A DNA stretch of 49,293 nucleotides from Deltaproteobacteria bacterium (GTDB taxonomy: Bacteria > Desulfobacterota > Syntrophia > Syntrophales > UBA8958): contig JAPLJZ010000190.1 of assembly GCA_026388335.1 (NCBI GenBank), positions 1 to 49,293 on the forward strand, read 5' to 3'. Below are positions 1 to 42,430 of this stretch, one piece after another. The position numbers were made by a program, and so were the translations under genes. Below the pieces are notes generated by a model. The model had not been told where the DNA came from. It was given only the letters and a program-made list of their open reading frames with translations, and searched no databases. How positions within the stretch are numbered: position 1 is the first letter of the stretch; each line of letters opens with the position of its first letter.

Positions 1-256
1 CAGTCAGACTGTTCCAGTTCCTGGCCAGGGTCCGCTTCCCAAGTTCGACATCATTGAACATTTGTTCATAGATGGCGCGAAGCTTTTTCTTTTTGATCTC
101 TTTGGCCGATTCGCCCTTGAGCTTTGGATCTCGCAACACATCCAGCACCTTGTTCACGTTGGCCTGAACCGTATTCATGGGCACGCCTGCGTGCGCCGGC
201 AGAGTGAACAGTAAGATCATCAGAATCGTTAATAGAGCGTTAAACGGTCTCCTCAT
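1..256 (-). CDS. mlaC: MlaC-like phospholipid-binding periplasmic protein, partial (3' end outside window)
   Basis: Only the N-terminal ~85 residues are in the window. They show a signal peptide (MRRPFNALLTILMILLLTVH) and then a segment (VNKVLDVLRDP, YEQMFNDVELGKRTL) typical of the MlaC/Ttg2D family, which shuttles phospholipids through the periplasm between the outer-membrane and inner-membrane parts of the Mla system. The ATG overlaps the stop codon of the MCE-domain gene by four bases (ATGA), so the two are translationally coupled and this is the last visible gene of an mlaE-F-D-C operon. The protein's lipid-binding pocket cannot be checked because the gene runs off the window. Confidence 0.85.
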   Translation of the reverse strand, partial: MRRPFNALLTILMILLFTLPAHAGVPMNTVQANVNKVLDVLRDPKLKGESAKEIKKKKLRAIYEQMFNDVELGKRTLARNWNSLT

Positions 257-741
257 GGTTTTCCTTTCTTGGCCGCGTTAGACTCTTCCGGCTTCTTTAC
301 ATCGCCGAAGGCATATTTGCTGATTAGAGCGGCGATGTCCACGGCGGGTTGCGTTTCCGTGATGGATTCGCCTGGTTTAAGGGGGTTGCCTCCGCCGCCG
401 GGGTCAATGCTGAGATACATGTCACCGATCAATCCCTCCGTTTTAATGGAGGCCATGGCATCATCATAAATCTTGATATCTTTCCGGATGCGAATCTCCA
501 CGATGGCCTTCTGATTTTCCTGGTCCATGGTGAGCCGCTCCACACGCCCGACCTCAATGCCTGAAATATAGACCAGGCTGCCGGCTCTCAGGCCTGTTAC
601 GGTCGTGAAGCGGGCAAACAGCGAATAGGCGTTGTCGCCAAGCAGGGATATATGACCGAGTTTCACCGTCATATATCCAATGCAGAGGAGCCCGAAGACG
701 AGAAAAATGCCAACAGTGGTTTCCATTGTGTATTTTTTCAT
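253..741 (-). CDS. mlaD: MlaD-like MCE-domain lipoid transport protein
   Basis: A 162-residue protein with one N-terminal membrane anchor (about residues 8-28, VGIFLVFGLLCIGYMTVKLG) and a single MCE domain (about 38-118; ARFTTVTGLRAGSLVYISGIEVGRV is its usual start). In the Mla system MlaD forms a hexameric ring on the periplasmic face of the MlaE permease and channels phospholipids. The length and single-MCE layout match proteobacterial MlaD. The gene starts four bases after the ATPase gene stops and has a G-rich ribosome site (GGGGGT) inside the upstream gene. The C-terminus is Lys/Pro-rich and probably disordered. Confidence 0.9.
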   Translation of the reverse strand: MKKYTMETTVGIFLVFGLLCIGYMTVKLGHISLLGDNAYSLFARFTTVTGLRAGSLVYISGIEVGRVERLTMDQENQKAIVEIRIRKDIKIYDDAMASIKTEGLIGDMYLSIDPGGGGNPLKPGESITETQPAVDIAALISKYAFGDVKKPEESNAAKKGKP

Positions 742-745
742 TGAC

Positions 746-1990
746 CTACCCCCTTACATCGCACCGCAGGCGGGCGATTTCTTTTTGATTTGATTTTGCC
801 TCATCGATGACGGCCTCTATTTCAGCAAATGGCTGACCCTGAGCTATTCCCGCCCTGATGACGAGTTCGATGCAACCCCCCGAGGCTTTCCGTCTTTCCT
901 GGCCCTCAAAATTATCTTGCAGGCCTCGTTCCTGGAAATCATGGGCAAAATCATTAAGGATGTTTTGCGCTTCCGCCAGGTCAGAATAGGGGAGCACCGT
1001 AACAAATTGGTTGGTGTGGCGTCGCGTGGAAAAGCCCCCAATCGCGCCGAAGTGTTTATCGATATATCTTCCCATGCTCCGGATAGTCTTCCGCGCCGTT
1101 TCATGGCTTGAGCCGGTCATGATGACATCCAGATCGTCCAGCGCAAAAACCACCAGGGAGTATGTTTCCCCGCGTGTCCTCTGGGTCAGTTGAGCATGGT
1201 GCATGACCTTGAACTGCCGCTTGGAATACAGCCCCGTTAATTCCTGCTGAAGTCCTTCCAGACTGCGGATGACTTCATCCTTGAACGGGTGGTCGAAATT
1301 TTCCAGTTCCTCCGGAGTACCTTGAAAAACGATGGCTCGGTCATAGAGCGCCAGAATGCGGTTGGAGATAAAATAAACATCCGGTATCTCGTGGCTGACC
1401 ATGATCGCCGTAAACCCGAATTTCCTCTGATACTGGGCAATCATACTCAGGATGGCGTTCTTCCGGACGGGATCCTGGCCGGATGTGGGTTCATCGAACA
1501 GGACAATGTGGGGGTCCGTAACCAAAGCCCGGGCCAGGGCGGCGCGTTTCTGCATGCCACCGGAGAGTTCCGAGGGATACTTGTGAGCCGCATCTTTAAG
1601 TTCTGTCTGTTCGATTCTGGCCATCACCCGGCTGTCGATTTCAGTTTTGCCCAGGTTCGTCGTCTCCCGGAGGGGGAGGGCGATATTTTCGTAGACCGTC
1701 ATGGAATCGAAGAGGGCATTGTCCTGAAACATATAGCTTATCTGTGCGTGTTTGGCCGTCCGCTCCGATTTTGTCATTTTGAGCATGGGTTGGCCCTGGA
1801 AGAGAATCGTCCCCTCATCCGGCTCGAGGAGCCCGATGATATGCTTGAGGAGCACACTCTTACCCGAACCGCTGAGGCCGATAATAGTTGTGACCTGTCC
1901 CTCGTAGATTTTCAGGTTAATGTGATCAAGGATTATCCGGGAACCGAAACGCTTGGTGACATCCTTGAATTCGATCAACGGGGCATCCAT
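746..1990 (-). CDS. mlaF: MlaF-like ABC ATPase with a C-terminal GGDEF-like extension
   Basis: The first ~260 residues are a standard ABC ATPase energising lipid transport through MlaE: Walker A GLSGSGKS, signature LSGGMQKR, Walker B IVLFDEPTSG, then the H-loop region MVSHEIPD. MlaF proteins usually end near here. This one continues for ~150 residues (about 265-414). The extra part begins LVVFALDDLDVI, has an R-rich turn followed by NQFVTVLP, and ends with GIAQG and a helix with AKSNQ. That order resembles a GGDEF domain whose GG(D/E)EF loop has been replaced, so I infer a non-catalytic sensory or regulatory fold. The ATPase call is firm; the extension's fold is a guess from pattern. Confidence 0.87.
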   Translation of the reverse strand: MDAPLIEFKDVTKRFGSRIILDHINLKIYEGQVTTIIGLSGSGKSVLLKHIIGLLEPDEGTILFQGQPMLKMTKSERTAKHAQISYMFQDNALFDSMTVYENIALPLRETTNLGKTEIDSRVMARIEQTELKDAAHKYPSELSGGMQKRAALARALVTDPHIVLFDEPTSGQDPVRKNAILSMIAQYQRKFGFTAIMVSHEIPDVYFISNRILALYDRAIVFQGTPEELENFDHPFKDEVIRSLEGLQQELTGLYSKRQFKVMHHAQLTQRTRGETYSLVVFALDDLDVIMTGSSHETARKTIRSMGRYIDKHFGAIGGFSTRRHTNQFVTVLPYSDLAEAQNILNDFAHDFQERGLQDNFEGQERRKASGGCIELVIRAGIAQGQPFAEIEAVIDEAKSNQKEIARLRCDVRG

Positions 1991-1994
1991 GGGG

Positions 1995-2849
1995 CTATCC
2001 TCGAATAAGTAGAGATGTCACCACGTAATCCGACACCAGGATCAGGACGCAGGAGATCACGACGGCCGACGTTGTGGACAAGCCGACGGCCTTGGCGCCA
2101 TGGCTGTCCGTGCGCATGTGCGCGAAATAGCCCTGGTAACAGCAGACGGTGGAGACGATGAAGGCAAAAACAATCGACTTGATGAAACCGTCCGTGACAT
2201 CTTTCATGTCCATGCTGGCCTGAACACGATACACATAGGTACCGGCATTTGCCCCCAGGAGCAGGACACCAGATATGTAGCCGCCGATGATGCCGACGAT
2301 GTCGAACACCGCCGTGAGGATGGGAAAGCTGATGATGGATGCGGCAATTCTCGGGCTGATGAGGTAGCGGAGCGGATCGATCCTCATGGTGTCCAGGGCG
2401 TCAATCTGTTCGGAGATGCGTTGAATGCCGATTTCTGCGGTGATGGCTGAACCTGCCCTGGCGGCGATCATGATGGCCGTGAGCACGGGCCCCAATTCCC
2501 TGACCAGCGTCAGGGCGACCAGTGTCCCGAGCGCCCCCTGGGCGCCGAATTTGACTAGGGCCGTGTAGGATTGCAGGCCCAGAACCATGCCGGTAAACAG
2601 GCTGACCAGCAGGATGATCATCGTGGAACTGGCCCCGATATAATAGATCTGCTGAATGATCTTGCCCCATTGCTTGGGGTGCAGAATTTTCAGGAATGCC
2701 AGCATGAGGAAAATGGCCGAAGCGCCTAAATTACTGACCCAACTGATTGTGGATTGGCCGAAACAGGCGAACGGCTTTGTCAACAACATGCTGATCCGCC
2801 ACGGTGGTTTGCTTCCCGGGAGGTTATGACTGTTTGCATCGAGTGCCAT
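1995..2849 (-). CDS. mlaE: MlaE-like ABC permease
   Basis: Polytopic inner-membrane permease of the MlaE family, the membrane core of the phospholipid transporter. It shows an amphipathic N-terminal helix, about five or six hydrophobic segments, and the family's coupling-helix motif (ISEQIDALDTMRIDPLRYL). I chose the ATG at 2849 (284 residues) because it has an AGGGA site nine bases upstream and because a perfect hairpin (2879-2903) would otherwise lie inside the coding sequence. An in-frame ATG at 2912 would add 21 residues with no membrane or family signal. First gene of the operon; five bases before mlaF. Confidence 0.87.
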   Translation of the reverse strand: MALDANSHNLPGSKPPWRISMLLTKPFACFGQSTISWVSNLGASAIFLMLAFLKILHPKQWGKIIQQIYYIGASSTMIILLVSLFTGMVLGLQSYTALVKFGAQGALGTLVALTLVRELGPVLTAIMIAARAGSAITAEIGIQRISEQIDALDTMRIDPLRYLISPRIAASIISFPILTAVFDIVGIIGGYISGVLLLGANAGTYVYRVQASMDMKDVTDGFIKSIVFAFIVSTVCCYQGYFAHMRTDSHGAKAVGLSTTSAVVISCVLILVSDYVVTSLLIRG

Positions 2850-2878
2850 ACAAGGATGTCCCTGCGTTTTATGCCGAC

Positions 2879-2903
2879 TTCCCCCAAAGATCCTTTGGGG
2901 GAA
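2879..2903 (-). promoter_or_regulatory. Perfect 11-bp stem hairpin in the mla leader
   Basis: TTCCCCCAAAG and its exact complement are separated by a 3-base loop. It lies between the mla promoter (start near 2951) and the preferred mlaE start at 2849, so it would form in the 5' leader of the mRNA. It has no following U-run in the direction of transcription, so it is not a plain terminator. It could be an RNA stability or processing element, or part of a dispersed repeat. Confidence 0.5.
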
Positions 2904-2957
2904 TGCTTCCATAGCGTTCTTTTTAATGCTCGTAGATTATGCGACGCTCCACTGTTA

Positions 2958-3534: not shown

Positions 3535-4878
3535 TCAGATAACGCCGCCGGCTTTCAATTTTCCCAGCTTTGAAGGCCCGATCCCGAGATACTTCCGGTA
3601 AACAAACTCATTGTCGTGACCTATGGGACGGCATACCCATTTTGTTCGGATGGGTGTTTCGGTCAGCTTATATTGGGCCTGCGCAACGACGATTTCACCA
3701 TATACCGGATCATTCACGGGCATGAAAACGCCTCTTTCGTTCCAATTCGGATCTTTCATGGTGACTTCCGGTGACACGATCGGTGCGACGACCGGCGTTA
3801 TGGGCGCCAGTCGACCATTCTTGCCATATTCCAACGACATTTGAACAAGTTCCTCGCTCGTGTGCCGCGATGTAAACTCAACGATTCCCGGCCAGTATTT
3901 GAGACGCACTTCCATCTTCATGAAAGGTCCCAACTCCTTCCACGAACCTACATCCCACTCATCCCACTTCCCCATGATATCACAGAATGCCTGCCACATC
4001 TCCAACCTTAAGCCGCCCAGAAACACACCGCCGTTCTTGGTCGGGGCAAACGTATAGAGCCATATGGCGTTGTCCAGACCGGCCACTCTCTCGGTAATGT
4101 TTTGACCTCCCTGATACCAGAGGTGCGTATAGTCATCGAACCGCATGTAGGCTTCAGTAGAGGAGATATCGAGGGCCTGCCCCTCACCCGAGAATTTTCG
4201 CCAATGCAGTGCAGCCAGGATGCCAACCGCCATGAATGAGCCTGATATGCACCAAGCAGACCACGGTCCTGCTTTGGTCGGAACGGCCCATTCGGGCGCG
4301 TTATCCGCTGTCATTCCTTCGGGAATCATTTCACCTGTGGCGTATTGGATGCCCGACCTCGCCTGAGCAACATTGTCGTAATCGGGCATATTGCTCTTGC
4401 TCAGGGGCCCGAACTGGCCGTAGTTCGTGATGGAAGCGAAAATCAACCTGGGGTTGACTTCCTTGAGCTGCTCATAGCCGAGGCCGATTTTATATAATGT
4501 ACCGGGCTTGAATGTGTCCAGAAGCACATCGGCCTGGCTGGCAAGGTCCCGCACGACATCCCTGCCTTCCTCGGTTTCGAGATTGACGGTAACATGAAGC
4601 TTGTTCCTTCCCTCCGTCAGATAGTTCAGCCCCTCTCCCTTGTGGTAAATTCCATACGGTGTGCAGGTACGCAGGAAGTCGCCTCCCGGCGGCTCGATCC
4701 TGATCACTTCAGCCCCGAATTCGGCCAGGAGTGAGGAACAATAGCACCCCGCATAGTTGTTATAACTAAGATCCAGAACAAGTATATCGTCCAATGCCTC
4801 GGGTTTGCCGTGAGCGAGCTTCGGATCGTCAAGCGCCCTCACTTCATCTGCCCAATCTGCCCATTTAGGTCTGGTCAT
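3535..4878 (-). CDS. Family III CoA-transferase subunit lacking the usual catalytic Asp
   Basis: A 447-residue CaiB/BaiF (family III) CoA-transferase: DILVLDLSYNNYAGCYCSSLLAEFGAEVIRIEPPGGD at the start, DTFKPGTL, LIFASITNYGQFGP and GILAAL are family landmarks. These enzymes move CoA between carboxylic acids. In formyl-CoA transferase-like members an Asp lies 15 residues before the end of GILAAL (GDSNSG); here that position is Trp (WCISG). The adjoining paralogue keeps the Asp, so this may be the non-catalytic partner of a heterodimer, as in benzylsuccinate CoA-transferase BbsEF. I start at ATG 4878 because AAGGAG lies just upstream; 4941 is possible. The substrate is unknown. Confidence 0.85.
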   Translation of the reverse strand: MTRPKWADWADEVRALDDPKLAHGKPEALDDILVLDLSYNNYAGCYCSSLLAEFGAEVIRIEPPGGDFLRTCTPYGIYHKGEGLNYLTEGRNKLHVTVNLETEEGRDVVRDLASQADVLLDTFKPGTLYKIGLGYEQLKEVNPRLIFASITNYGQFGPLSKSNMPDYDNVAQARSGIQYATGEMIPEGMTADNAPEWAVPTKAGPWSAWCISGSFMAVGILAALHWRKFSGEGQALDISSTEAYMRFDDYTHLWYQGGQNITERVAGLDNAIWLYTFAPTKNGGVFLGGLRLEMWQAFCDIMGKWDEWDVGSWKELGPFMKMEVRLKYWPGIVEFTSRHTSEELVQMSLEYGKNGRLAPITPVVAPIVSPEVTMKDPNWNERGVFMPVNDPVYGEIVVAQAQYKLTETPIRTKWVCRPIGHDNEFVYRKYLGIGPSKLGKLKAGGVI

Positions 4879-4904
4879 GATAAATTCTCCTTTCGTGATT
4901 TCAG

Positions 4905-6236
4905 CTACGCCAGCGCGTTGATCCCGGATTTTCCATCCCATCCCGGAGGAGGACGGCGTCCAGCCCTATCGGCCCATTTGCCTACAGCCTTACATTCATA
5001 CATATTTTTGACCTCTTCTTCTGTCTTTCCGAGGATGCTCTTCAGAATATACTCATTGTCAAAACCGACGGGCCTGGCAGTCCATTTCTTCTTCGGCGGC
5101 GTTTTGCTCATCATGACGGGGAATTCATGGTCGAGGTATTCGCCGTAAAGCGCATCATCGACCTGCGTCATGAATCCCCGCTCTTTGAGATGGGCGTTCT
5201 CGTTGATGTCTTTCGCGTTCATCACGTGGGAGGCTGCAAAACAGTGCTTTTCCGCGAGGCTCTCAATCTCCTTAACCGTTTTTGTTTTTGCCCACTCGGC
5301 GATGATCTTGAGGAGCACCGTCGCGTTTTCCTGCTTCAGGCGGACGTTATGGTCCTTAAATCGCAGATCTGTAGCCATCTCCGGTTTGCCCATGGCCGTG
5401 CATAAACCCTTGAACTCCTCCGGTGTTGCCGCCGCCAGTGCTATCAGGGCGCTGTCTGATGTCCGGAACGAATCGGCAGGACATATTGACACATCTCTGT
5501 TCCCTGCCGGTTGAGCGCCTTTGCCGGTGAGATACTGATAAGGCCAGATCCAGGACATGGTTCTGATAATCGTCTCTGTTTGTGATGCCTCGATATACTG
5601 GCCTCTTCCGGTTCTTTCACGGTAATGGAGCGCGCTCAGTACGGCCACCTCCGTCAACAGCGCGCCATACATATCGCAGGCGTAAATCATTTGTTTGACC
5701 GGCGGCTTGTCCGGAAAAGAGGACATCCAGGAAAAACCTGAGAAGGCCTGCGCAGCGCCGTCATTCGACGGACGACCTTCCTCTGCATACTGACCCCACT
5801 GACCGAACCCATTCTTCTCAACGTAGATAATACGGGGATTGATATTTTTTACCTGTCGGTATCCAACGTTCCAGCGTTCCATAACCCCGGGCCTTAAATT
5901 ATCCTCGATAATATCCGCTTTGCGGGCAAGTTCGAGGAAAATTTCCTGAGCCGCAGGCAAATGGAGATCAAGTCCGAAATAAAGCTTGTTCACATTGTCA
6001 TGCATAAATAACGGGCTCTGTTCCTTAAACAGGAAACCGGCACAGCTCAACGCCCGCTCCACGTCTCCCAAGGGAGGTATCTCGCACTTGATGCTCTCTG
6101 CCCCCATTTCCGCCAACCAGCTTGGACCGGAAGGTCCGAAAACCAGCGTGCACACTTCCAGAACCCTTATCCCCTTTAAAGGTTTGGGACTGCCTGCTTT
6201 CTTCCTCACATAGTCCTTCCATACAGCTTCACTCAT
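4905..6236 (-). CDS. Family III CoA-transferase subunit with catalytic Asp
   Basis: A 443-residue CaiB/BaiF-family protein (PLKGIRVLEVCTLVFGPSG, LGLDLHLPAAQEIF-like region, IIEDNLRPGVMERW, ALHYRERTGRGQYIEASQ). The residue aligned with the formyl-CoA transferase nucleophile is Asp (ACDMYGALL), as expected for an active subunit. It is the first gene of a two-gene minus-strand operon, 26 bases before the paralogue, and has a strong AGGAGGG site before its ATG. The pair probably forms a heterodimer activating an aromatic or aliphatic acid by CoA transfer. No other pathway gene is nearby to fix the substrate. Confidence 0.87.
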   Translation of the reverse strand: MSEAVWKDYVRKKAGSPKPLKGIRVLEVCTLVFGPSGPSWLAEMGAESIKCEIPPLGDVERALSCAGFLFKEQSPLFMHDNVNKLYFGLDLHLPAAQEIFLELARKADIIEDNLRPGVMERWNVGYRQVKNINPRIIYVEKNGFGQWGQYAEEGRPSNDGAAQAFSGFSWMSSFPDKPPVKQMIYACDMYGALLTEVAVLSALHYRERTGRGQYIEASQTETIIRTMSWIWPYQYLTGKGAQPAGNRDVSICPADSFRTSDSALIALAAATPEEFKGLCTAMGKPEMATDLRFKDHNVRLKQENATVLLKIIAEWAKTKTVKEIESLAEKHCFAASHVMNAKDINENAHLKERGFMTQVDDALYGEYLDHEFPVMMSKTPPKKKWTARPVGFDNEYILKSILGKTEEEVKNMYECKAVGKWADRAGRRPPPGWDGKSGINALA

Positions 6237-6493: not shown

Positions 6494-7624
6494 TTATTCC
6501 GTGAGCAAAACAGAATGCAGGGTCGCCCCTTTGTTTTTAAGGCCGATCTTTTGCCTGATTATGGAGCGGTGGTAATCCACACCCCTGGGCGTGAGATTCA
6601 TCAATGACCCGATCTCTTTTGATGATTTGCCCTCCTTGATAAGCTGGGCGATTTGTATCTGTTTTTGTGTGAGATTCGAGCATCTGAAGCTCAGCATCTG
6701 AAGAAACGGGGATACGATTTCATTTAAATTCTTTTCCAGCAAGGCCAGTATGACATTCTGATCAGCAGTGAGCCTGCCCGCTTTCATTCGCTCGATCAAG
6801 GGGATAATGCTATCCCGAACGTTCAAAAGGATTTTTTCCTCCATCTCTTTTTTATCATTTTCGCGCTTTCTAAGTAGGACATTCAAGGCAGTGTTCGCTT
6901 CTTCGAGATTGCGTGTCTTGATCTGCAGCTCCTGCTTTCTCGTCTGTAGGTCTTCTTCCGTTTTTTTTCTAAATTCTATTTCTTTTTTGATCTGCTCAAT
7001 ATACCTGACATTCATAATAGCCAGACCGATCGTCTTTCCCATTGATAATAAGGATTCTTCCTCGATCTTTGAAAGGGATGGTTTCTCTTTGAATATCAGG
7101 TTGATTACCCCCATCACCTGGTTGTTATAGAGCAAAGGCACCGAGATGATCGATTTACGACCTTCCTTCAAAAGCTCATCTTTTACTGCCGGCTCAATTC
7201 GGCTGTCCTGCTTTATATCCCGGCAAAATATTAATTTCTTTCCAGCCACCGTGTGTCCGCTTAAGCTCCCGTCCAACGGCAAGACGCTTGCTTTTCGCCG
7301 GGAGCCCGGTTTGAATCCTAAAGAATGTACCATTTCCAGATTACGTTTATTTTCTTGCAGTATAAAAAAGGCAACGCCCAGAGAACGGCTGTAATCCATC
7401 ATCGAGGACACCGCCCGTTTAACCAGGGTATCAAAATCCAGAGATGTATAGAGGCTGTCTGCTGTTCTGTTGATTGCTTCAAGTGACTTGTTTCGTTTTT
7501 TAAGCTCATCCTGATTTGCTCTAGTGGATGAACTTTCCCGCATGATAATGTCTTCAGATTCCCGGAGGCTGGCTATTGCATCCTCCAGTTTCTGCATCTT
7601 TTCTCTGAATTTTTGTATGCTCAT
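6494..7624 (-). CDS. GAF-domain LuxR-type transcriptional regulator
   Basis: Predicted order: N-terminal coiled coil (about 1-50), GAF-type ligand or redox sensing domain (about 50-200; SVPLLYNNQVMGVINLIF is its usual core), a second coiled coil (200-300), and a C-terminal LuxR/FixJ helix-turn-helix (about 320-376; LTQKQIQIAQLIKEGKSSKE, GVDYHRSIIRQKIG). The HTH starts LTQKQ rather than LTxRE, a common variant in Desulfobacterota. ATG 7624 is preferred over the TTG at 7636. It lies upstream of the CoA-transferase operon in the same orientation, so it could regulate it; this is inference. The 257 bases between them hold no gene. Confidence 0.8.
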   Translation of the reverse strand: MSIQKFREKMQKLEDAIASLRESEDIIMRESSSTRANQDELKKRNKSLEAINRTADSLYTSLDFDTLVKRAVSSMMDYSRSLGVAFFILQENKRNLEMVHSLGFKPGSRRKASVLPLDGSLSGHTVAGKKLIFCRDIKQDSRIEPAVKDELLKEGRKSIISVPLLYNNQVMGVINLIFKEKPSLSKIEEESLLSMGKTIGLAIMNVRYIEQIKKEIEFRKKTEEDLQTRKQELQIKTRNLEEANTALNVLLRKRENDKKEMEEKILLNVRDSIIPLIERMKAGRLTADQNVILALLEKNLNEIVSPFLQMLSFRCSNLTQKQIQIAQLIKEGKSSKEIGSLMNLTPRGVDYHRSIIRQKIGLKNKGATLHSVLLTE

Positions 7625-7721
7625 TTGTCTTCTCAAAGGCTGCTCTTACTTGAAAAATTGCACAGACCTGGATTAAAAGTCAATATTTTTCAGTAGAAGC
7701 AATATTCTTTTAATTCAAAAT

Positions 7722-7895: not shown

Positions 7896-9647
7896 TCAAC
7901 AGGTAATTTTATTGATCACTTCAAAGAGAGCGGCTTTTTTGATCGGTTTGACGAGGTGTCCGTTGCATCCGGCGTCAAGACTTTTCTGTTCATCCTCTTT
8001 CAGGGCGAAAGCTGTCAGGGCAAAGATGGGAACAGAGGGAAGCCCCTGGTCCTGTTCCCACCGCCGGATCTCCTGGGTTGCCGTATAACCGTCCATGACG
8101 GGCATCTGCATATCCATGAAAACCAGGTCATAGGTCCCCGTCTTAAACATCTCCACACCGACAGCGCCGTTTTCCGCCATTTGAAGTTGATGAGGCGTGC
8201 TTTTCAAAAAAGTCCGGATCAAAAGGCGGTTATCTTCGTTATCCTCGACCAGGAGAATCCTGAGGGATCGCTGCATGCCGGGGCCGTCGAGTTCGACCAT
8301 CGGTTTCGTCTCCGCCATCTGTGCCTTTCCCAGGGCCGCACTGATCGCCTCCCACAGATCTCGCCGTTTAACCGGTTTGTAGAGGAATTGATCAATGCCG
8401 ATTTTTTTCGCTTCCGTCAGATCCTCTTTTGGATAGCCCGATGAAAGCATGATGATTACCGTGGACGACAGGCTGGGATCCTCGCGAATCTCCGCTGCCG
8501 TCGCGAAGCCGTCCATGACGGGCATGTGATAATCTAAAATTATGAAATCATAGGGTTTATTGGATGATTTAGCCTCTTTCAGCGTTGTGATGCCGGACCA
8601 GCCGTTGTCCGCCGTCGTCACAACGGATCCCCATCCCGTCAGCATCTCCCGGACAATCATCCGATTCGTGGCGTTATCATCAATGACAAGAGCCCGTCGT
8701 CCCGTGATATCGGTAAAAACAGATTCCTCCTCTCTGACGGGTCCTTTTTGCACAGTGAAGGGGACCGCAAAGGAAAAAACGCTTCCCTTTCCCAGCTCGC
8801 TTTCTACCCCAATCGTTCCTCCCATGAGTTCGACGAGGTATTTGGCAATCGTTAAACCGAGGCCCGTCCCTCCGTATTCACGCGTTGTGGAGGAATCGGC
8901 CTGTATAAACCGTTCAAATACGTCCCTCATCTTTTCCTGAGAAATCCCGATGCCCGTATCGCACACGGAAAAAACCAACTCCACCGTATTCTCATCGTCT
9001 CGCGTAACGGACGGCGGCGTCAACTTTATGTCAAGTACCACCTCTCCTACTTCGGTAAATTTGATGGCATTGCCCAGGAGGTTGACGATTACCTGACGCA
9101 GCCGAATGGGATCGCCCCGCAGATACGCCGGGACATCCGGCGTCACATGGCAGGTCAGTTCAACCCCTTTGTTGTTGGCCCTGACGCACATGATCTCGCC
9201 GATCCTTTCGACCATTTCCCTGAGATCGAAGTCAATATGCTCAAGATGGACGTGACCGGCCTCCACCTTGGAAAGATCGAGGATGTCGTTGATGATGCCC
9301 AGAAGATTTTCTCCCGCATTATTGAAAACTCGCACATATTTCTGTTGTTCTTTCGTCAAGGGGGTTTCGGCCAGGAGTTCCGCCATCCCGAGGATGGCGT
9401 TCATCGGCGTCCGAATCTCGTGACTCATACTCGCCAGAAATTCGCTCTTGGCTTTATTGGCCACCTCGGCCGCCTCTTTGGCCTTATGTAACTCTTCCTC
9501 CACCTCTTTGCGCTTGGCAATCTCCGCGTAAAGCTCGTCCGTCTTTTCCAGTACGCTCTTCTCGTACACATCGAGCAGTTGTTCCAGAGCCGCTATTTGA
9601 GACTTGAGAAGCCGATTCTCAACGGTTGCAGGTCCGTCATTCTCCAT
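7896..9647 (-). CDS. Hybrid histidine kinase with two receiver domains
   Basis: A 583-residue soluble hybrid kinase: N-terminal coiled coil (1-70) with no sensor or membrane domain, HisKA with phospho-accepting His ([14 protein letters not shown]), HATPase_c ([22 protein letters not shown]), then receiver 1 (VIDDNATN, phospho-Asp in [11 protein letters not shown]) and receiver 2 (LVEDNEDN, Asp in [11 protein letters not shown]). It autophosphorylates on His and passes the phosphate to Asp. Lack of a sensor domain suggests input from a partner, plausibly the protein encoded 45 bases upstream at 9693-10442, with which it shares an operon. No HPt domain is visible. GGAG lies before the ATG. Confidence 0.93.
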
Positions 9648-27309: not shown

Positions 27310-27447
27310 ATGGAAAACAGCATAAAGGCTAAAATGCCCCAGGATCGATTTTGGGACCTGCCCGGCCACGATGAGCCGCTCTTTTCGTTGACACTGTTTA
27401 TAACTATGTCAACGGGCCTTGTGGGGGTGAATTTGACATGCTCTTAG
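27310..27447 (+). CDS. Small ORF before the portal gene
   Basis: 45 codons between terminase and portal genes (MENSIKAKMPQDRFWDLPGH and a hydrophobic end TLFITMSTGLVGV), overlapping the portal start by ten bases. GGGGAG lies ~12 bases before the ATG. No family recognised; may only couple translation. Confidence 0.35.
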   Translation: MENSIKAKMPQDRFWDLPGHDEPLFSLTLFITMSTGLVGVNLTCS

Positions 27448-29627
27448 ACCAGTTTGGCAGGGAGATCAAATCGAATAAACCGATTTTGGAGGAAGTAGCC
27501 GTCCAAACCATTCGGGACCGGTATGCATCATACCCGTCCCAGGGGCTTACACCGCAACGCCTGGCGAGCATTTTCAAGGAAGCAGACCAGGGGGATGTGA
27601 TGCGCCAGGCGGAACTGTTCGAGGAGATGGAGGAGAAGGATCTGCACCTGGGCGGGATTCTGCAAACGCGGAAACTGGCCGTAACGGGTCTGGACTGGGA
27701 GATGCTCCCGGCATCCGATTCGGCAGAGGATAAGAAGATCGCCGCTGCCGCCAAAGAGATGATCGAGTATATCGAAAACTTGGAGGACGCTCTCAAGGAT
27801 ACAATGGATGCCGTCGGCAAGGGCTTTGCCGTCCAGGAGATCCTCTGGGACATGTCCGAAGGGCAGGTCTGGGCTAAGGAGATAAAGTGGATACATCAAC
27901 GGCGTTTTACCTTTAACACCGCCACAGTGCTTTTGGAGCATCCCCGCCTTCTCACGGACGCCAGCCCGACCTGGGGCGAGGAACTGCTTCCCAACAAGTT
28001 CATCGGTCACAAGTACCGCGCCAGATCCGGGGCGACGGCCCGCGGCGGATTGCTGAGGCCATGCTCCTTTATGTACTTGTTCAAGAATTACGACATCAAA
28101 AACTGGGTCATCTTTAACGAACTGTTCTCCGTTCCCATGCGGGTGGGGAAGTATAAACCGGGCGCGGGTAAGGAAGAAAAAGAAGCTCTCAAACGAGCCG
28201 TTTTCAACCTGGGCGTCGATGCCGCCGCAGTGATCTCGGACAATACGATCATCGAATTACTCGAGTCGGCGCGCCGGGGGGATGCCGGTGTATATTCCGC
28301 CCTGGCCGAGTTTTGCGATAAGGCCATGTCCAAAGGAGTGCTGGGGCATACGGGCAGCTCCGACAGTACGCCGGGAAAACTGGGTGGCGAGGACCAGGCT
28401 AAACTGGTTCGCCAGGATCTCAAGGCTGACGATGCGAAGGCGCTCACGAAAACATATAAGTTCCAGCTCCTGAAACCCTGGGTCGCCTACAATTTCGGCC
28501 CTGATAAGGGCATCCCGATATTGAAGTTCCATTATGAGGATGAAGGAGATCTGGAAAAGATTGCCAAGATCTATGGGGTCCTTGTCAAAGATGCCAATTT
28601 TGAGGGCATACCGGAGACACACGTGAATGAACGCTTCGGAATCCCTCGGGCAAAACCGGAAGAGAAGACCCTGCGGGCGGCACAGCAGCCTCCCGGCATT
28701 TTGGGATTGAACGCAAACAAAGACCATCTATTCTTGCCGAGACAACATGCAATATTAGGGTTGGCGAGAAACAGGGAACTACAGATCATGGCCAATATGG
28801 CCGGGGAGATCCCCGATGGTCGCGATACTTTTGACTGGGTCTCCGTTTACATGGAACGGCTCGGACCGACACTCCGTAACGTGAAAGCGACGGCCCTCGA
28901 CGACATCGAGGAGTGGCTGCAATCCCTCTCCGCTCCGCCCGTACAGGCAGAATTCATTACAAAGATAGAAGGTATGCTCGGCGCTTCCTTCGCCGCTCTG
29001 GATCGTAAGGTTATCGCCGATACGGTTACCGATATCTACCGTGCCTACCGGACGGCCCCCGGCATCGATCTGGCTTTCGGCGGTCCGGATCTGCGGGCGA
29101 CGAAGTTCCTGGCCAAGCTCGATCATTTTTACATCTCTTCATATCTCAAGAATCCCGAAGCCCAAAAGGCGACGCAGGATTTTTTACAGGAACGCTACCT
29201 CAACCAGGGTGCGGGCCTTTTCGGACGGGGTAAGCCGGAGGACGTCCAAGCATTCAGGGACCTTTTTGGCCAGAAGCTCTCCGACCTGGAAGAATGGCAG
29301 ATCCGGAGGATCGCCGATACCTCCGTCCAGCGCACGCGCAATTGGGCAAGCGTCGCCCAGTTTCAGGAAGCTGCCATTTTGGAAATCGAAATCTACGAGC
29401 CGACCAGGGATTGCGATTTTTGCCGCAGCATGAACGGCCGGGTCATCAGCGTGCCCATCGCCTACGGGAAAATGATGAATCAGGCCGCCATGACGGCAAA
29501 GGAATATGAGAACGATATGCGGGGCACTGTCCCAACGGTCGAGAACATAGACAAGTTCGTCGGGGCCGGGACATTGCCGCCGTACCACCCCTTCTGTCAC
29601 GGTATGGTGCTCCGGAGGGTCAAATGA
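27438..29627 (+). CDS. Portal protein fused to MuF-like minor head protein
   Basis: 729 residues. Residues ~1-430 match the gp29/DUF935 portal (QAELFEEMEEKDLHLGGILQ, TGLDWEM, GKGFAVQEILWDMSEGQVWA, WVIFNELFSVPMRVGKY), forming the DNA entry ring of the head. Residues ~450-729 match gp30/MuF-SPP1 gp7 minor head proteins (IRRIADTSVQRTRNWASVAQ, DCDFCRSMNGRVI, YHPFCHGMV). In Mu these are two genes, so here they are fused. CxxC and PxHPxCH-type residues may bind metal. Confidence 0.88.
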   Translation: MLLDQFGREIKSNKPILEEVAVQTIRDRYASYPSQGLTPQRLASIFKEADQGDVMRQAELFEEMEEKDLHLGGILQTRKLAVTGLDWEMLPASDSAEDKKIAAAAKEMIEYIENLEDALKDTMDAVGKGFAVQEILWDMSEGQVWAKEIKWIHQRRFTFNTATVLLEHPRLLTDASPTWGEELLPNKFIGHKYRARSGATARGGLLRPCSFMYLFKNYDIKNWVIFNELFSVPMRVGKYKPGAGKEEKEALKRAVFNLGVDAAAVISDNTIIELLESARRGDAGVYSALAEFCDKAMSKGVLGHTGSSDSTPGKLGGEDQAKLVRQDLKADDAKALTKTYKFQLLKPWVAYNFGPDKGIPILKFHYEDEGDLEKIAKIYGVLVKDANFEGIPETHVNERFGIPRAKPEEKTLRAAQQPPGILGLNANKDHLFLPRQHAILGLARNRELQIMANMAGEIPDGRDTFDWVSVYMERLGPTLRNVKATALDDIEEWLQSLSAPPVQAEFITKIEGMLGASFAALDRKVIADTVTDIYRAYRTAPGIDLAFGGPDLRATKFLAKLDHFYISSYLKNPEAQKATQDFLQERYLNQGAGLFGRGKPEDVQAFRDLFGQKLSDLEEWQIRRIADTSVQRTRNWASVAQFQEAAILEIEIYEPTRDCDFCRSMNGRVISVPIAYGKMMNQAAMTAKEYENDMRGTVPTVENIDKFVGAGTLPPYHPFCHGMVLRRVK

Positions 29628-30073
29628 AGATCCATTTTAAAATCACACCGGACCTGGACAAACTGCCGCGCAACCTCGAAGGCAATGTGGATGGCGCAAG
29701 GCGGGCAGGAATGACCAACGTCGTTACGACCATTGAGGCGACGGCTCGGAAAGATGCTCCTGTTAAAAGATCGAATCTGGCCAACTCCGGAACAAGCAAG
29801 ATCGAAGATGACGGCAGCAAGGGCATCATCAAGTTCACGGCTCCTTATGCCGGATATGTTCACGAGGGAACCGGACTATATGGTCCTCACAGGACAAAAA
29901 TCGTCCCGAAGTCCAAAAAGGCCCTTTTCTGGCGGGGAGCGGCTCACCCGGTTAAATCGGTTCGCGGCATGGTTGGCAAGCCATTTCTGAAAAATGCGGC
30001 GGAAAAGGCCAACATCCCGAGTCTCTTCGCGGAAGGGGCCAATAATTACCTGACGCAGCATGGAGGTCAATAA
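29624..30073 (+). CDS. HK97 gp10-like virion morphogenesis protein
   Basis: 149 residues with the pattern of HK97-gp10 neck/tail-completion proteins: DAPVKRSNLANSG, APYAGYVHEGTGLYGPHR, PFLKNAAEKA. It takes the place of Mu G (gp31). Overlaps the portal gene by ATGA. Confidence 0.82.
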   Translation: MKIHFKITPDLDKLPRNLEGNVDGARRAGMTNVVTTIEATARKDAPVKRSNLANSGTSKIEDDGSKGIIKFTAPYAGYVHEGTGLYGPHRTKIVPKSKKALFWRGAAHPVKSVRGMVGKPFLKNAAEKANIPSLFAEGANNYLTQHGGQ

Positions 30074-30075
30074 CG

Positions 30076-31083
30076 ATGGATACATGGATGGTTCTCCTTT
30101 GCAAGGAGCTTTCGGGCACCGTTCCCGAAGAGATTCAGGTGATCCCATACGGGATCGATATCGAAACGCCGAAAGGGAAGTTTACCTGCGATGAAACAAG
30201 CCAGCAGGCCGTTTTAGCCGCCTTTGACGCGCAAAAGAACGACATGGTTATCGATTACGAACATCAGACTCTCCGGGACGTCGAGGCGCCTGCTGCCGGA
30301 TGGATCAAAAAGGCAAAACTGATCAACAAAGGCAAAGAGGGCATCTGGGCCGTAGTCGATTGGACGGAGAAAGCCAGGCAATATATTGCCAACAAAGAGT
30401 ACCGTTATGTGTCTCCCGTCTTTATAACGCGAATCTCCGATAACCGGGTCGTGCGCCTCATAAACGTAGCCCTTACCAATCAGCCGAATATCGACGGGAT
30501 GGTCCCGTTGATCAATAAATACATGGAAAATCAACTTGAACTTAACAACCAACATAAGGAGGACGGCAATATGACGTGGAAAGAATTGTTGAAGCTCCTC
30601 GGACTGGCCGAGGGTGCAACGGAGGCGGATGCCATCATGGCAGTTAACAAACTGAAAGAGCCGGTGAAGATCGTGGCAAACAAGGGTGTCCTCGATGCAC
30701 TGGGTCTGGCCGAGGGAGCGACGGAGTCGGAGATTACCGGCACTATCATGGCCATGAAACAGTCGCACGGCCAGGTAGGCACCCTGGCCCAGGAACTTGC
30801 TCAGTTAAAAGCCCACCTGGGTAAGAAAGATGCTGGCGACCTGGTGACGATGGCCATGAAGGAAGGAAAGATCACCCCTGCACAGAAGGAATGGGCCGAG
30901 GCATATGCCGAGCGGGATATCGAAGGGTTCAAGGTATTCGTGTCCAAGGCCCCCGTGGTGGTCGTCATGGGTAAGGTCATCGGTGAGGAAAAGCCTGCGG
31001 AGGGCGCTCTGGATGCCACTCAACTGGAAATCAACAAACAGATGGGCATCGATACGGAGACGTTCAAGAAATTCGACAAATAA
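30076..31083 (+). CDS. Phage prohead protease-scaffold (Mu I-like)
   Basis: 335 residues. The N-terminal half resembles the Mu gene I protease (VIPYGIDIETPKGKFTCDET, DMVIDYEHQTLRDVEA, AGWIKKAKL, RYVSPVFITR); the C-terminal half is a helical, charged scaffold-like domain. The protease trims the scaffold during head maturation. An internal start at 30571 would make the scaffold alone. Confidence 0.87.
   Translation: MDTWMVLLCKELSGTVPEEIQVIPYGIDIETPKGKFTCDETSQQAVLAAFDAQKNDMVIDYEHQTLRDVEAPAAGWIKKAKLINKGKEGIWAVVDWTEKARQYIANKEYRYVSPVFITRISDNRVVRLINVALTNQPNIDGMVPLINKYMENQLELNNQHKEDGNMTWKELLKLLGLAEGATEADAIMAVNKLKEPVKIVANKGVLDALGLAEGATESEITGTIMAMKQSHGQVGTLAQELAQLKAHLGKKDAGDLVTMAMKEGKITPAQKEWAEAYAERDIEGFKVFVSKAPVVVVMGKVIGEEKPAEGALDATQLEINKQMGIDTETFKKFDK
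30571..31083 (+). CDS. Nested scaffold protein (Mu Z-like) in frame within the protease gene
   Basis: In-frame ATG 30571 has a textbook AAGGAGG eight bases upstream (30556-30562), inside the protease gene. The 170-residue product is helical and charged (KELLKLLGLAEGATEADAIM, repeated LGLAEGATE). Mu uses the same arrangement, gene Z nested in I, to make excess scaffold. Confidence 0.7.
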   Translation: MTWKELLKLLGLAEGATEADAIMAVNKLKEPVKIVANKGVLDALGLAEGATESEITGTIMAMKQSHGQVGTLAQELAQLKAHLGKKDAGDLVTMAMKEGKITPAQKEWAEAYAERDIEGFKVFVSKAPVVVVMGKVIGEEKPAEGALDATQLEINKQMGIDTETFKKFDK

Positions 31084-31088
31084 CGGAC

Positions 31089-31136
31089 TCCCGCCTGTGC
31101 GGGATGACAGAGACAGCCGGGGTTTTCCAACCCCGG
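31089..31136 (+). promoter_or_regulatory. Two tandem hairpins between scaffold and decoration genes
   Basis: TCCCGC-CTGT-GCGGGA (31089-31104) and CCGGGGTT-TTCC-AACCCCGG (31117-31136), both perfect stems with four-base loops. No T-run follows, so they may stabilise or process the mRNA and set the ratio of head proteins. Confidence 0.45.
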
Positions 31137-31155
31137 ATTGAAAAGGAGAAAAAAT

Positions 31156-32049
31156 ATGACGGCATTGGCGAGGGATAAAAAGACGGAATACAAGGAGGGG
31201 GTGGAAATACCCGCCCCGGTTGAAGAACTCACCATTATTTATGCGGGGGCGCTGGCATGTCTGAATGCAAACGGTTATTTGGTTCCCGGCGCGGATACGG
31301 CGGGTCTGATTTTTCACGGCATCGCCAGGGAGCACGTCGATAATTCGCTTGGCGGCGACGGCGATCTGACCGCCGTGGTGCGGCGCAGGGGGCTGGTCAA
31401 AATGGCATTGGGCCATGCCATCACCCAGGCCAACATGGGCGACAATGTTTTTATCGTGGATGATCAGACCGTTGACTTGGCGGCACATGTAGCAAACGCC
31501 ATTTTCTGCGGTGTCATCGCCGAGTTTATCGACACTACACACGCCTACATCGACATTGAACCGGCCATCGTCCAGGGAGACGTGGCCACGCATATCGCCG
31601 ACACAAGCGGGGCGCATGCCGCGTCGGCCATTTCGACAACGGATGCGGGCGATCATTTCCCGGCCGCCACGGACACTGTGGAAGAGCAGATTCAGGATCT
31701 GGCCAAGGGGCCGTTCTTTTTAACCCTGCCCCGCTTCACCGGCTGGACCAAGGACGGCACCGATAAGACGATCGTTCTTCCCGCCGTGGAATCCCCGCTC
31801 CCCGTTGTGGTGAAACGGGCCTATGCCAACCTGGGCACAGCTCCCGGAGCGGGGAAAACCCTGGCACTGAAGTTGAACGATACAGTCCTGGCTTCCATAG
31901 CGGACGCCAATACCCAGGGCGAAGCGGAAGCCCTTGCCATAGCCGTTGCCGCCAACACGGACATGGTGATCAAGGCTAATGAAACAGCGGACGGGGCGGG
32001 AGCAAACTGCGACATCATTCTGGTCATGTACAAGGATGACGGCGAATAA
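31156..32049 (+). CDS. Head decoration protein with extra C-terminal domain
   Basis: 297 residues. The first ~110 match DUF2190-type capsid decoration proteins (IYAGALACLNANGYLVPGAD, GLIFHGIAREHVDN, VRRRGLVKMALG). A linker with HIADTSGAHAASAISTTDAG and TVEEQIQDLA follows, a motif common in phage fibres, then a beta-rich C-terminal domain (VESPLPVVVKRAYANLG, MVIKANETADGAGANCDIIL). Decoration proteins stabilise the capsid; the added domain could be displayed outside. Chosen ATG has AAAGGAG 8-9 bases upstream. Confidence 0.75.
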   Translation: MTALARDKKTEYKEGVEIPAPVEELTIIYAGALACLNANGYLVPGADTAGLIFHGIAREHVDNSLGGDGDLTAVVRRRGLVKMALGHAITQANMGDNVFIVDDQTVDLAAHVANAIFCGVIAEFIDTTHAYIDIEPAIVQGDVATHIADTSGAHAASAISTTDAGDHFPAATDTVEEQIQDLAKGPFFLTLPRFTGWTKDGTDKTIVLPAVESPLPVVVKRAYANLGTAPGAGKTLALKLNDTVLASIADANTQGEAEALAIAVAANTDMVIKANETADGAGANCDIILVMYKDDGE

Positions 32050-32103
32050 TAACAAATAACGAACAGGTGCGGTATGCCGCGCCTCAATCAGAAGGAGGAT
32101 AAA

Positions 32104-32985
32104 ATGATCATCAATCAGGCAACCTTGCAGGGGGCACATAAGACGTTCAAGGTTATTTTCAACCAGGCGTTCGAGGGAGCGCCCAGTCAGTGGGATCTTG
32201 TGGCCATGCAAGTCCCGTCGGTCGGCCGGGAGCAGGGATATCCGTGGCTCGGCGATTTTCCTACCATGCGGGAATGGATCGGCGACCGGGTCATCAAGGA
32301 TCTTTCCGCATTTGACTATACCATCAAAAACAAACCCTATGAAGCCACGATCGGCGTGGATCGTGACGATATCGCGGACGATCTCCTCGGACTCTACAAT
32401 CCGAGAATCCAGGGCCTTGCCGTAGCGGCAAAGGAACATCCGGACATCCTGGTTTTCTCGCTCCTCAAGTTGGGTTTCGCTACCCGCTGCTTCGACGGCC
32501 AGTATTTCTTCGACACGGACCATCCCTGGGGTGACAGTGAGGTCTCCAATTCAGGCGGTGGAGCGGGAGAGCCGTGGTTCCTCATGGATCTGCGCCGCCC
32601 CATAAAACCGATGATCCTTCAGATGCGAAAGCAACCCGAATTTGTTGCTCTGGATCAGCCGGACAATCCGGAAACCTTCATGCGCAAAAAGTTCATCTAC
32701 GGCGTGGATGACAGGAAAAACGTCGGATTCGGTCTGTGGCAGTTGGCATACGGCAGCAAACAGACCCTCGATGAAACCAGTTACGCTGCTGCACGGGCAG
32801 CGATGATGTCCTTCAAGCGGGAAGACGGAGAGACGCCTCTCGGGATCATCCCGACCCATCTCATCCACGGTCCGCTGCTTGAGTCTGCAGCCAAGAAGGT
32901 TGTCGATGCAGCCAACAAAGCAGGTGGCGAGAGCAATATCTGGTACACCACGGCGAAGTCCGTAAACGTCCCCTGGTTGGCATAG
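32104..32985 (+). CDS. Major head protein (Mu T-like)
   Basis: 293 residues of the Mu-like gpT capsid family: TFKVIFNQAFEGAPSQWDLV, FPTMREWIGDRVIKDLSAFD, YTIKNKPYEATIGVDRDDI, GQYFFDTDHPWG. It forms the icosahedral shell. GGAGGATAAA precedes the ATG. Confidence 0.93.
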   Translation: MIINQATLQGAHKTFKVIFNQAFEGAPSQWDLVAMQVPSVGREQGYPWLGDFPTMREWIGDRVIKDLSAFDYTIKNKPYEATIGVDRDDIADDLLGLYNPRIQGLAVAAKEHPDILVFSLLKLGFATRCFDGQYFFDTDHPWGDSEVSNSGGGAGEPWFLMDLRRPIKPMILQMRKQPEFVALDQPDNPETFMRKKFIYGVDDRKNVGFGLWQLAYGSKQTLDETSYAAARAAMMSFKREDGETPLGIIPTHLIHGPLLESAAKKVVDAANKAGGESNIWYTTAKSVNVPWLA

Positions 32986-33055
32986 CCGGGCATAACCGAA
33001 ATTCCAGGGGGACATGGCACAAACATGTCTCCCTGCCGAGAAAGGAGAACAACTC

Positions 33056-33283
33056 ATGATGATATCAGTACGATCCATACCCAAGACGTTCCGCCGGGCC
33101 GGGAAGGAGTTTACGGACAAACCCCGGAAGATCGATGTAGATGAAGAGACCCTGGCGGTTTTGAAGGCTGAGCCGCTCCTTGTGGTCGAGGTGCTTCCGG
33201 AGGAACCTGTCACGGATAATGACAATCCGGAAACAGCCTCGGAGAAAAAGACTAAAACCGGTTCAAAAACCGGGGGGAAATAG
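33056..33283 (+). CDS. gp35-like small head-region protein
   Basis: 75 residues (SIPKTFRRAGKEFTDKPRKI, LAVLKAEPLLVVEVLPEE) with an acidic and Lys-rich tail, like HI1506/gp35 proteins that follow the major head gene in Mu-like phages. AAAGGAG lies ~9 bases upstream. Confidence 0.75.
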   Translation: MMISVRSIPKTFRRAGKEFTDKPRKIDVDEETLAVLKAEPLLVVEVLPEEPVTDNDNPETASEKKTKTGSKTGGK

Positions 33284-33330
33284 AACCTTCCAGGATACGG
33301 TTTTAAGCCTGTCGTTACAGGAGATAAGGG

Positions 33331-33789
33331 ATGCCCTACAGCACACTGACCGACATAAAGAAGCTCCTCACAGAGGGAAAGCTGATCCAGCTTACGGACG
33401 ACGAAAATTTGAAACCGGCGACGATCGACCCGGCCGATCCCGGCCATGCGCCGATGATCGGCCGGGTCGATGAGGCCATTGCGACGGCGGATGCGGAAAT
33501 CGACGGTTACTGCGCGGTAAAGTACACCGTGCCGTTTACTTCCGTCGTACCGCTGGTCAAAGGGCTGTCGGTAGAGATCTCGATCTATTACCTATACAAG
33601 CGGCGCACCGTGCCGGAGAAAGTTGAAAAGGCTTACGACAAGGCGGTGGCCAGGTTGAAGGATATCTCGCGCGGCCTGCTTTCGCTCGGCATCGATCCGC
33701 CTCCGGCGCCGGTCAGTTCCGGAGGGGCCGAGTCGAATAAATCCGTAAGCGACAGGGTATTTACCCGTGACTCCCTGAAAGGATTCTGA
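33331..33789 (+). CDS. gp36-like head-tail connector (DUF1320)
   Basis: 152 residues. IGRVDEAIATADAEIDGYCA and VKGLSVEISIYYLYKRR match DUF1320/gp36 proteins thought to act at the head-tail junction. Overlaps the next gene by one base. Confidence 0.85.
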   Translation: MPYSTLTDIKKLLTEGKLIQLTDDENLKPATIDPADPGHAPMIGRVDEAIATADAEIDGYCAVKYTVPFTSVVPLVKGLSVEISIYYLYKRRTVPEKVEKAYDKAVARLKDISRGLLSLGIDPPPAPVSSGGAESNKSVSDRVFTRDSLKGF

Positions 33790-34304
33790 TGCTGACCGAT
33801 ATCGAAGAAAAGATCGTCGAGCGGCTCGATGCCAAGATTACCGAACCGAAGCGCGTTGACATTGAGGAAGCCCACAAGTCGCTTTCCGTCCCGTCCATCG
33901 ATGTCATCGTGGGCGGCGGGGGATTCGCGAGGGTCGCCCAAAGTTACAAACTACAGGCGAACGTCTTTGTCATCGTCACATTTCAGCATCTGAGGAGCGT
34001 CCGGGATCGGCGCAAGGGTGTTTATCCTTTGTTGGAAGCTATCCTGGCTTCCCTTGTGGGCCAGTCCCTGGGACTGAAAATCGATCGCCTTGTTCCCAAG
34101 CGGCTGGATAATATCACCGAAAAGGAAGAGGCGGAAGACGGCAAAGTCGTCTTTCAAATAGAGTTTGAAACCGGGTTCATTATTAACGAGCTATCCGATG
34201 AGGCAATCACGGACCTGATCACTGTCGGCCTCGGATATTACCTGCGGCTCGAAGACGAAGCCGCCGTCGTCCAGGATACGGTAACCCTGGAAATTGAAGC
34301 ATAA
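33789..34304 (+). CDS. gp37-like tail terminator/connector (DUF1834)
   Basis: 171 residues matching DUF1834/gp37 (VPSIDVIVGGGGFARVAQSY, FVIVTFQHLRSVRDRRKGVY). In Mu, gp37 closes the tail tube. Order gp36-gp37 retained. Confidence 0.83.
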   Translation: MLTDIEEKIVERLDAKITEPKRVDIEEAHKSLSVPSIDVIVGGGGFARVAQSYKLQANVFVIVTFQHLRSVRDRRKGVYPLLEAILASLVGQSLGLKIDRLVPKRLDNITEKEEAEDGKVVFQIEFETGFIINELSDEAITDLITVGLGYYLRLEDEAAVVQDTVTLEIEA

Positions 34305-34316
34305 AGGAGAAAAGCC

Positions 34317-34502
34317 ATGAAAGTTCAGGCAGCGCCGGGTACCATGTGCCCGAAAGAGGGGAAGCCCAGAGCGTACATTACGGACAGCGCCCCTGAGGAA
34401 GTGGCCAACAGCGCCTATTACCGAAGGCTCGTTGCTGACGGGTCGCTGATGGCCGTGGTGGGAACACCCAAAAAGAAGGAGGTAAAGTCTGATGGCCAGT
34501 AA
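34317..34502 (+). CDS. gp38-like small tail-region protein (DUF2635)
   Basis: 61 residues with DUF2635 features (VQAAPGTMCPKEGKPRAYIT, YYRRLVADGSLMAV). Ends overlapping the sheath start by eleven bases; commonly precedes the sheath gene in Mu-like phages. Confidence 0.8.
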   Translation: MKVQAAPGTMCPKEGKPRAYITDSAPEEVANSAYYRRLVADGSLMAVVGTPKKKEVKSDGQ

Positions 34503-35928: not shown

Positions 35929-35944
35929 ACAAACACCCTCGCAT

Positions 35945-35964
35945 CCCCCTTTCCTAAAAGGGGG
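35945..35964 (+). promoter_or_regulatory. Hairpin between sheath and tube genes
   Basis: CCCCCTTT-CCTA-AAAGGGGG, a perfect 8-bp stem in the 66-bp gap. No T-run; perhaps an mRNA stability element adjusting tube versus sheath expression. Confidence 0.4.
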
Positions 35965-35994
35965 CGCGAGAGGCGATTTTAAAAGGAGGCTGTC

Positions 35995-36363
35995 ATGGCT
36001 GAAGAATATGTGTCCCAGGTTAGGTTGGAGGTGGGAGACAAGGGAAGTATCACTGATTTCAAATCGGTGGAAGAAAATGAGTTCGAAGTTTACAAAACAG
36101 TGCCCCTGATGAATTCGACGGGGCATATCAAGACGCGGGAGCGTCACGGTGTAAAGCTGGAGTATGTAGTTCCCAAAGATACGCCGCCCAGCGACTTTTC
36201 GACGGTTAAGAACGCAACGATCAAAATCTATCGCGATAATGGTGCCAATGTCACCTACAGCGGCGTCTATGTCACCAAGATCGGAAGCGTGAAATACGAC
36301 GGCGACAAGGAAGCCACGCAAATGATCGAGTTCTCGGCGAAAAATAGAAAGGTTGGTGCGTGA
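35995..36363 (+). CDS. Tail tube protein (Mu gp40/M-like)
   Basis: 122 residues following the sheath gene. Beta-rich (VRLEVGDKGSITDFKSVEEN, VYVTKIGSVKYDGDKEATQM) as expected of the tube protomer in Mu-like phages. AAAAGGAGG precedes the ATG. Confidence 0.85.
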   Translation: MAEEYVSQVRLEVGDKGSITDFKSVEENEFEVYKTVPLMNSTGHIKTRERHGVKLEYVVPKDTPPSDFSTVKNATIKIYRDNGANVTYSGVYVTKIGSVKYDGDKEATQMIEFSAKNRKVGA

Positions 36364-36683: not shown

Positions 36684-36696
36684 CGCCCAGCGCCGA

Positions 36697-38745: not shown

Positions 38746-38746
38746 G

Positions 38747-42046: not shown

Positions 42047-42048
42047 TT

Positions 42049-42420: not shown

Positions 42421-42430
42421 GGTAGAAACA

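Follow-up and report, generated by a model that had tools for sequence, protein, structure and literature searches.

The window analysed here is a stretch of 49,293 nucleotides from a Deltaproteobacteria bacterium, and the gene near its first base for the ATPase MlaF raises the question of what the additional C-terminal part of this protein is and what it could do for the transporter. The original prediction was that MlaF carries a degenerate GGDEF-like domain at its C-terminus and that outer-membrane lipid transport is thereby coupled to a signal. Three lines of evidence support the first part of this prediction: the profile search, the predicted fold, and the mapping of residues. The second part is not demonstrated; the GTP-site residues and the c-di-GMP I-site of the window's domain have both been lost, and a purely structural or protein-binding role is therefore at least as likely as signal coupling. 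The features of the locus are collected in Table 1.

Table 1. Features of the mla locus, in positions of the window
Feature	Position	Strand	Basis
mlaF, 414 aa: ABC ATPase domain and GGDEF-like C-terminal domain	746..1990	-	ORF, profile and model matches
MlaF ATPase (NBD), residues 1-235	1286..1990	-	Profile match and BLASTP to E. coli MlaF
C-terminal extension, residues 236-414 (179 residues), predicted GGDEF fold	749..1285	-	
Stretch matched by Pfam GGDEF, residues 250-373	872..1243	-	
Beta-hairpin GFSTRRHTNQFVTVL, residues 319-333, in the place of the GG(D/E)EF loop, here R-R-H-T-N-Q-F	992..1036	-	
mlaE permease, MlaE domain (PF02405) from residue 85 of the longest ORF	1995..2912	-	
mlaD, MCE domain (PF02470/TIGR04430)	253..741	-	
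mlaC, 5' part, cut by the first base of the window and contig	2..256	-	

On the minus strand, the genes of the window are arranged in the order mlaE-mlaF-mlaD-mlaC, which is the operon setting of an MlaF protein. The truncated mlaC ORF gave an E value of 4.6e-5 and 23.7 bits with PF05494, under the cut-off of 26, and no STAS match was found in the mlaE ORF by the Pfam scan. The translation of MlaF contains the Walker A motif GLSGSGKS and the signature LSGGMQKR and matched ABC_tran of Pfam with an E value of 5e-37. Its top NCBIfam profile was that of MlaF (PRK11831), with a score of 208 bits that lies under the profile's cut-off of 441. Residues 3-235 showed 40% identity by BLASTP to E. coli MlaF, a protein of 269 aa, and the E. 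coli-type handshake tail was not seen in this alignment, which ends at residue 235. Judged from its sequence, the stretch of the first 235 residues is an ordinary MlaF ATPase. Since the alignment stops there, the extra part comprises residues 236-414; the extension had been placed at 746-1210 and is indeed present, but its true extent is slightly longer.

Other parts of the window contain unrelated features. A Mu-like prophage was observed at 27438-43420, with a portal protein (PF06074, E 7e-89), tail sheath, minor tail, GpP-like, and baseplate J proteins; 5 of the 10 ORFs scanned were matched, and the other 5 gave nothing at an E value of 1e-5. Judged by their translations, two adjacent ORFs at 3535-6236 (minus strand) may encode CaiB/BaiF-type CoA transferases. 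A GAF-LuxR regulator is found at 6494-7636 (minus strand), and the ORF that adjoins it at 7896-9647 (minus strand) encodes what we take to be a hybrid histidine kinase with receiver domains.

The extension (residues 236-414) matched the Pfam GGDEF family (PF00990) with an E value of 4e-5 and 23.9 bits, a borderline score just over the cut-off of 23.8, and other spans scored just below it (23.1 bits for residues 251-414 and 21.4 bits for the whole protein). The same family was matched at E ≤ 0.1 in 25 of 28 relatives, with a best E value of 1.7e-8. Against a profile built from seven true GGDEF domains, the window's domain scored 51.6 bits, although these seven were picked up by the family profile and thus lean towards the family rather than being a neutral draw. 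In the shuffle control with this profile, the best of 2000 shuffles of this domain (1552 scored) reached 9.7 bits, a value exceeded by 113 of the 114 family members. The clearest GGDEF landmark is ELTGLYSKRQF at residues 250-260, which was absent from the landmarks listed in the original prediction. A PDB sequence search with the extension alone as the query returned nothing meaningful.

An AlphaFold2 model of the extension, built on 45 sequences from the window and relative loci, had a pLDDT of 79 and contained, in order, helices, a strand, helices, a hairpin, a helix, a strand, a helix, and a strand. When it was searched against the PDB with Foldseek, GGDEF proteins occupied ranks 1-42, the best being DgcB (6tts, E 5e-7), and VIA-align superposed it on PleD with a Z score of 12.6 and an rmsd of 2.6 over 126 residues; the predicted fold is thus the nucleotidyl-cyclase fold that had been proposed. 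The full-length model best matched E. coli MlaFB (6xgz, E 3e-28), with MetN among the next matches; its pTM was 0.60, and the position of the GGDEF-like domain relative to the ATPase is uncertain. A GGDEF-fold domain fused to the C-terminus of MlaF is strongly supported.

To describe the residues of the domain, we used the PleD numbering and took the roles of D327, N335, and D344 as known metal- and guanine-binding sites. The residue table was made from 171 copies, which were merged to 114 unique members by removing identical ones; the partial copies L101, L103, L142, L145, L168, L178, L179, and L185 stand outside it. Mapped on true GGDEF domains, the GG[DE]EF motif, whose loop was predicted to be missing, occurs in none of the 114 unique members. 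The window's domain has A, M, and R at D327, N335, and D344. The metal-binding D327 position is T or S in 82 of the 114 members and D in 5, N335 is kept in 7, and no member has D327 and N335 together; the D344 position is Q in 92, and 87 members have E as the fourth residue of the motif. An active diguanylate cyclase was rejected on account of the missing motif and the absence of the metal- and guanine-binding residues in the window, and the domain looks inactive from its residues. Several non-catalytic residues are still conserved in the family: the L-T-G motif, R323, which lies directly before the loop and is kept in 113 of the 114 members, G381, A398, and C410. C410, near the C-terminus, is found in at least 90% of the 45 sequences and in 83% of the 114, despite the lost catalytic residues.

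E. coli MlaF has no such extension, nor do the unfused paralogues inspected, though it is clade-wide in part of the Desulfobacterota; like the fold prediction, this check left the proposed domain unrefuted. In the window's own genome and 99 relatives, the extension profile was matched at E ≤ 8.2e-10 in 51 of 100 genomes; the locus was read in 48 of these, where the MlaF ATPase is in the same frame, the remaining 3 being G006, G065, and G077. A wider profile yielded at least 53 candidate genomes among 395 sampled Desulfobacterota genomes. A single open frame holds both the ATPase and the GGDEF-like domain in 49 genomes (45 + 4) of 18 families, and 4 of the 53 candidates were not counted as fusions (G194, G317, and G441, which are cut or masked, and G395, whose locus was not read). 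An accident or assembly error peculiar to the window was rejected because the same fusion occurs in many other genomes. One narrow peptide pattern led to 65 relative loci, titled mostly Syntrophaceae, Smithella, Syntrophus, or Deltaproteobacteria; one is titled Nitrospirae and one WOR-3, and a Lachnospiraceae locus among them is an ordinary GGDEF. The nearest relative, with an extension 91% identical to that of the window, is a Syntrophus sp. MAG (L051).

A tree was calculated from the ATPase domains with the extension excluded, using a quick method and a midpoint root. It comprises 82 of 156 unique domains, selected by locus: 41 of the 43 unfused and 41 of the 113 fused ones. Left out were L225, which is cut, L222, a protein with two ATPases that is unrelated, and four fused sequences found later. 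All 41 fused rows and one truncated row fall on one branch (SH-aLRT 100), and the fused/unfused label changes twice on the tree, compared with 27.6 times in shuffles. The placement of the fusion in one MlaF lineage within the Desulfobacterota is strongly supported. As the root is a midpoint root, the direction of the two changes is inferred, and one gain followed by one later loss is the simplest reading. Fused and unfused MlaF coexist as separate systems in several genomes. A second mce-type operon in the window's genome (L188, G000 C34, 573-4173) encodes an MlaF-like ATPase that lacks the GGDEF-like domain, an MlaE of 386 aa whose long N-terminal part has no Pfam match, and two products that, as judged by eye, resemble an MCE protein (333 aa) and a lipoprotein (199 aa). 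In genome G231, the fusion occurs twice at L162 (477-1829 and 4731-6062, minus strand), in two different genes separated by some 3 kb, one Syntrophales-like and one of the early-branching type.

The truncated row is L220 from genome G001, which belongs to the window's genus. Its MlaF has 286 aa and retains the first part of the extension; mlaD follows within 50 bases downstream, and then come ORFs that resemble mlaC and mlaA by eye. Most of the domain is lost and the operon looks intact, so in this species, at any rate, the domain is dispensable. This loss is what might be expected of an evolutionary relic without function, as is the finding that the dN/dS of the extension was higher than that of the ATPase domain (0.02-0.16) in 11 of 12 pairs. 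However, the dN/dS of the extension was 0.04-0.45 in all 12 computable pairs of the 13 chosen (one was saturated, and the pairs are not independent), and the extension has been retained over 18 families on one branch. The relic reading is disfavoured by both results, and we consider it highly improbable; the comparison of the sequences strongly supports the view that the extension is kept by purifying selection. Given the age of the fusion and its retention in many species, a role in controlling the transporter or holding it together is probable.

We also compared the neighbours of fused and unfused MlaF. The locus L052, whose extension is 84% identical to that of the window, has the order mlaE-mlaF-mlaD-mlaC-mlaA; no STAS match was found among the ORFs scanned in this operon, and one 268-aa ORF matched no Pfam family. 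STAS_2 was found within 10 kb of the fused MlaF in 0 of 22 genomes and within 10 kb of an unfused short MlaE in 1 of 22, so a missing MlaB is no mark of the fusion. MlaB is also described as sparse in diderms in the cited part of PMC10665443. The window's contig, which ends inside mlaC, carries none of the STAS_2 matches of its genome. The MlaE comparison covered at least 150 rows from 78 genomes, with a limit of 340 aa between short and long that was chosen here. Among the matches listed, the long N-terminal part is missing from 55 of the 56 MlaE genes that have a fused MlaF within 3.5 kb, whereas 49 of the 94 other MlaE rows have it and 45 are short; two of these 45 belong to a fused system split between contigs (G194) and to the truncated one (G001). 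In at least 12 of the 22 genomes of the fused type, another MlaE has a STAS_2 match within its own frame, and the 386-aa MlaE of the window's genome matched no STAS family. A home-made STAS profile, which reached 8 sequences, was set aside. The idea that the GGDEF-like domain replaces STAS/MlaB is thus weakly supported, since the absence of STAS is not specific to the fused systems.

In E. coli, according to the cited part of PMC7367683, the MlaF tail of about 25 aa wraps round the partner subunit, touches MlaB, and is required for function, and a GCN4 dimeriser can substantially substitute for it. The same part states that other ABC ATPases have domains at the C-terminus that associate with each other below the NBDs, whose association they are believed to control. 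The GGDEF-like domain begins at the place of the E. coli handshake tail, which contacts MlaB. Two such domains may associate beside or below the ATPase dimer, and this association would promote closure of the dimer and its attachment to MlaE; the dimer could also be gated through a partner or ligand that binds there, as the C-terminal domains of MetN, ModC, and MalK do. Because of the tail position and the data on the E. coli tail and ABC C-terminal domains, the best-supported reading is that the domain is inactive and serves to dimerise and regulate the transporter motor, and we give it about an even chance of being correct. Against it stand the uncertain position of the domain relative to the ATPase, the loss in G001, the higher dN/dS of the extension in 11 of 12 pairs, and the near-equal lack of STAS genes around unfused systems; the domain may in addition bind a ligand.

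It could also be proposed that the domain is a receptor for c-di-GMP or another nucleotide that switches the transporter, with ancestral binding at the I-site and a later change or loss of the ligand. Binding of c-di-GMP at the I-site is known for other degenerate GGDEF domains, for example that of PelD. We assume that the RxxD of the I-site lies at the position just before the GGDEF loop. It is present there in 6 of the 114 members (L146-L150 and L159), which are early-branching in the tree as drawn, so an ancestral c-di-GMP receptor is possible. Elsewhere in the window's genome, 10 further GGDEF domains pass the Pfam cut-off, all of them as profile matches only, and c-di-GMP signalling is probably present in this organism. 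However, both I-site positions are G in the window's MlaF, RxxD is missing in 108 of the 114 members, only the D of the motif is found in two early-branching rows (L161 and the second L162 gene), and the GTP-site residues are mostly lost across the family. We regard a receptor as unlikely. It appears decidedly unlikely that both situations apply, with the early-branching MlaF binding c-di-GMP at the I-site and the Syntrophales domain re-tooled for another ligand or partner, replacing MlaB.

GGDEF domains without activity are often used for contacts between proteins, and the domain might be a docking module through which the Mla system is switched, in MlaB's place, by a partner; this could be an active GGDEF/EAL protein, for example, or a regulator of envelope stress. 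The conserved non-catalytic residues, from the L-T-G motif to C410, would be consistent with such a role, but no evident partner gene was found among the ORFs scanned in the L052 operon, and this reading seems improbable to us.

A natural, clade-wide MlaF with a folded pseudo-GGDEF domain in place of the handshake offers a direct route to ask whether NBD dimerisation is the control point of the transporter, and the species of the window's genus that has lost the domain provides a natural matched comparison. The control of active MlaB in E. coli is described as an open question in the cited part of PMC7367683. With the fused MlaF, it can also be asked if lipid transport is ever subject to a second messenger; if the c-di-GMP reading is true, outer-membrane lipid transport would be a direct target of second-messenger signalling. 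No description of an MlaF-GGDEF fusion was found in the open-licence literature, as judged by titles and the beginnings of abstracts. ABC ATPases with a C-terminal regulatory domain are a known class, and what appears to be new is that this domain is a pseudo-GGDEF.

Among the closest known systems, the window's MlaF resembles that of E. coli MlaFEDB, with which it shares an ATPase of 40% identity and the neighbours mlaE, mlaD, and mlaC. However, E. coli MlaF has the handshake tail and is accompanied by a separate STAS protein, MlaB (PMC7367683, part cited), whereas the window's MlaF has the GGDEF-like extension of 179 residues and no mlaB was seen nearby. The Mla core without MlaB resembles MlaEFD of Veillonella parvula, where, according to the cited part of PMC10665443, MlaF closely resembles its counterpart in model diderms but has a shorter tail, and MlaC and MlaA are absent. 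The extension is similar to the GGDEF domains of PleD and DgcB in predicted fold and profile match, but the family lacks the GG(D/E)EF loop, and the window's domain lacks the metal- and guanine-binding residues and the I-site. The overall architecture, a folded regulatory domain appended to the NBD, is that of MetN, ModC, and MalK, whose C-terminal domains are described as ferredoxin-like or TOBE folds rather than GGDEF (PMC7367683, part cited); MetN aligns with the full model of the window's MlaF over about 360 columns, but with an rmsd of 10-12.
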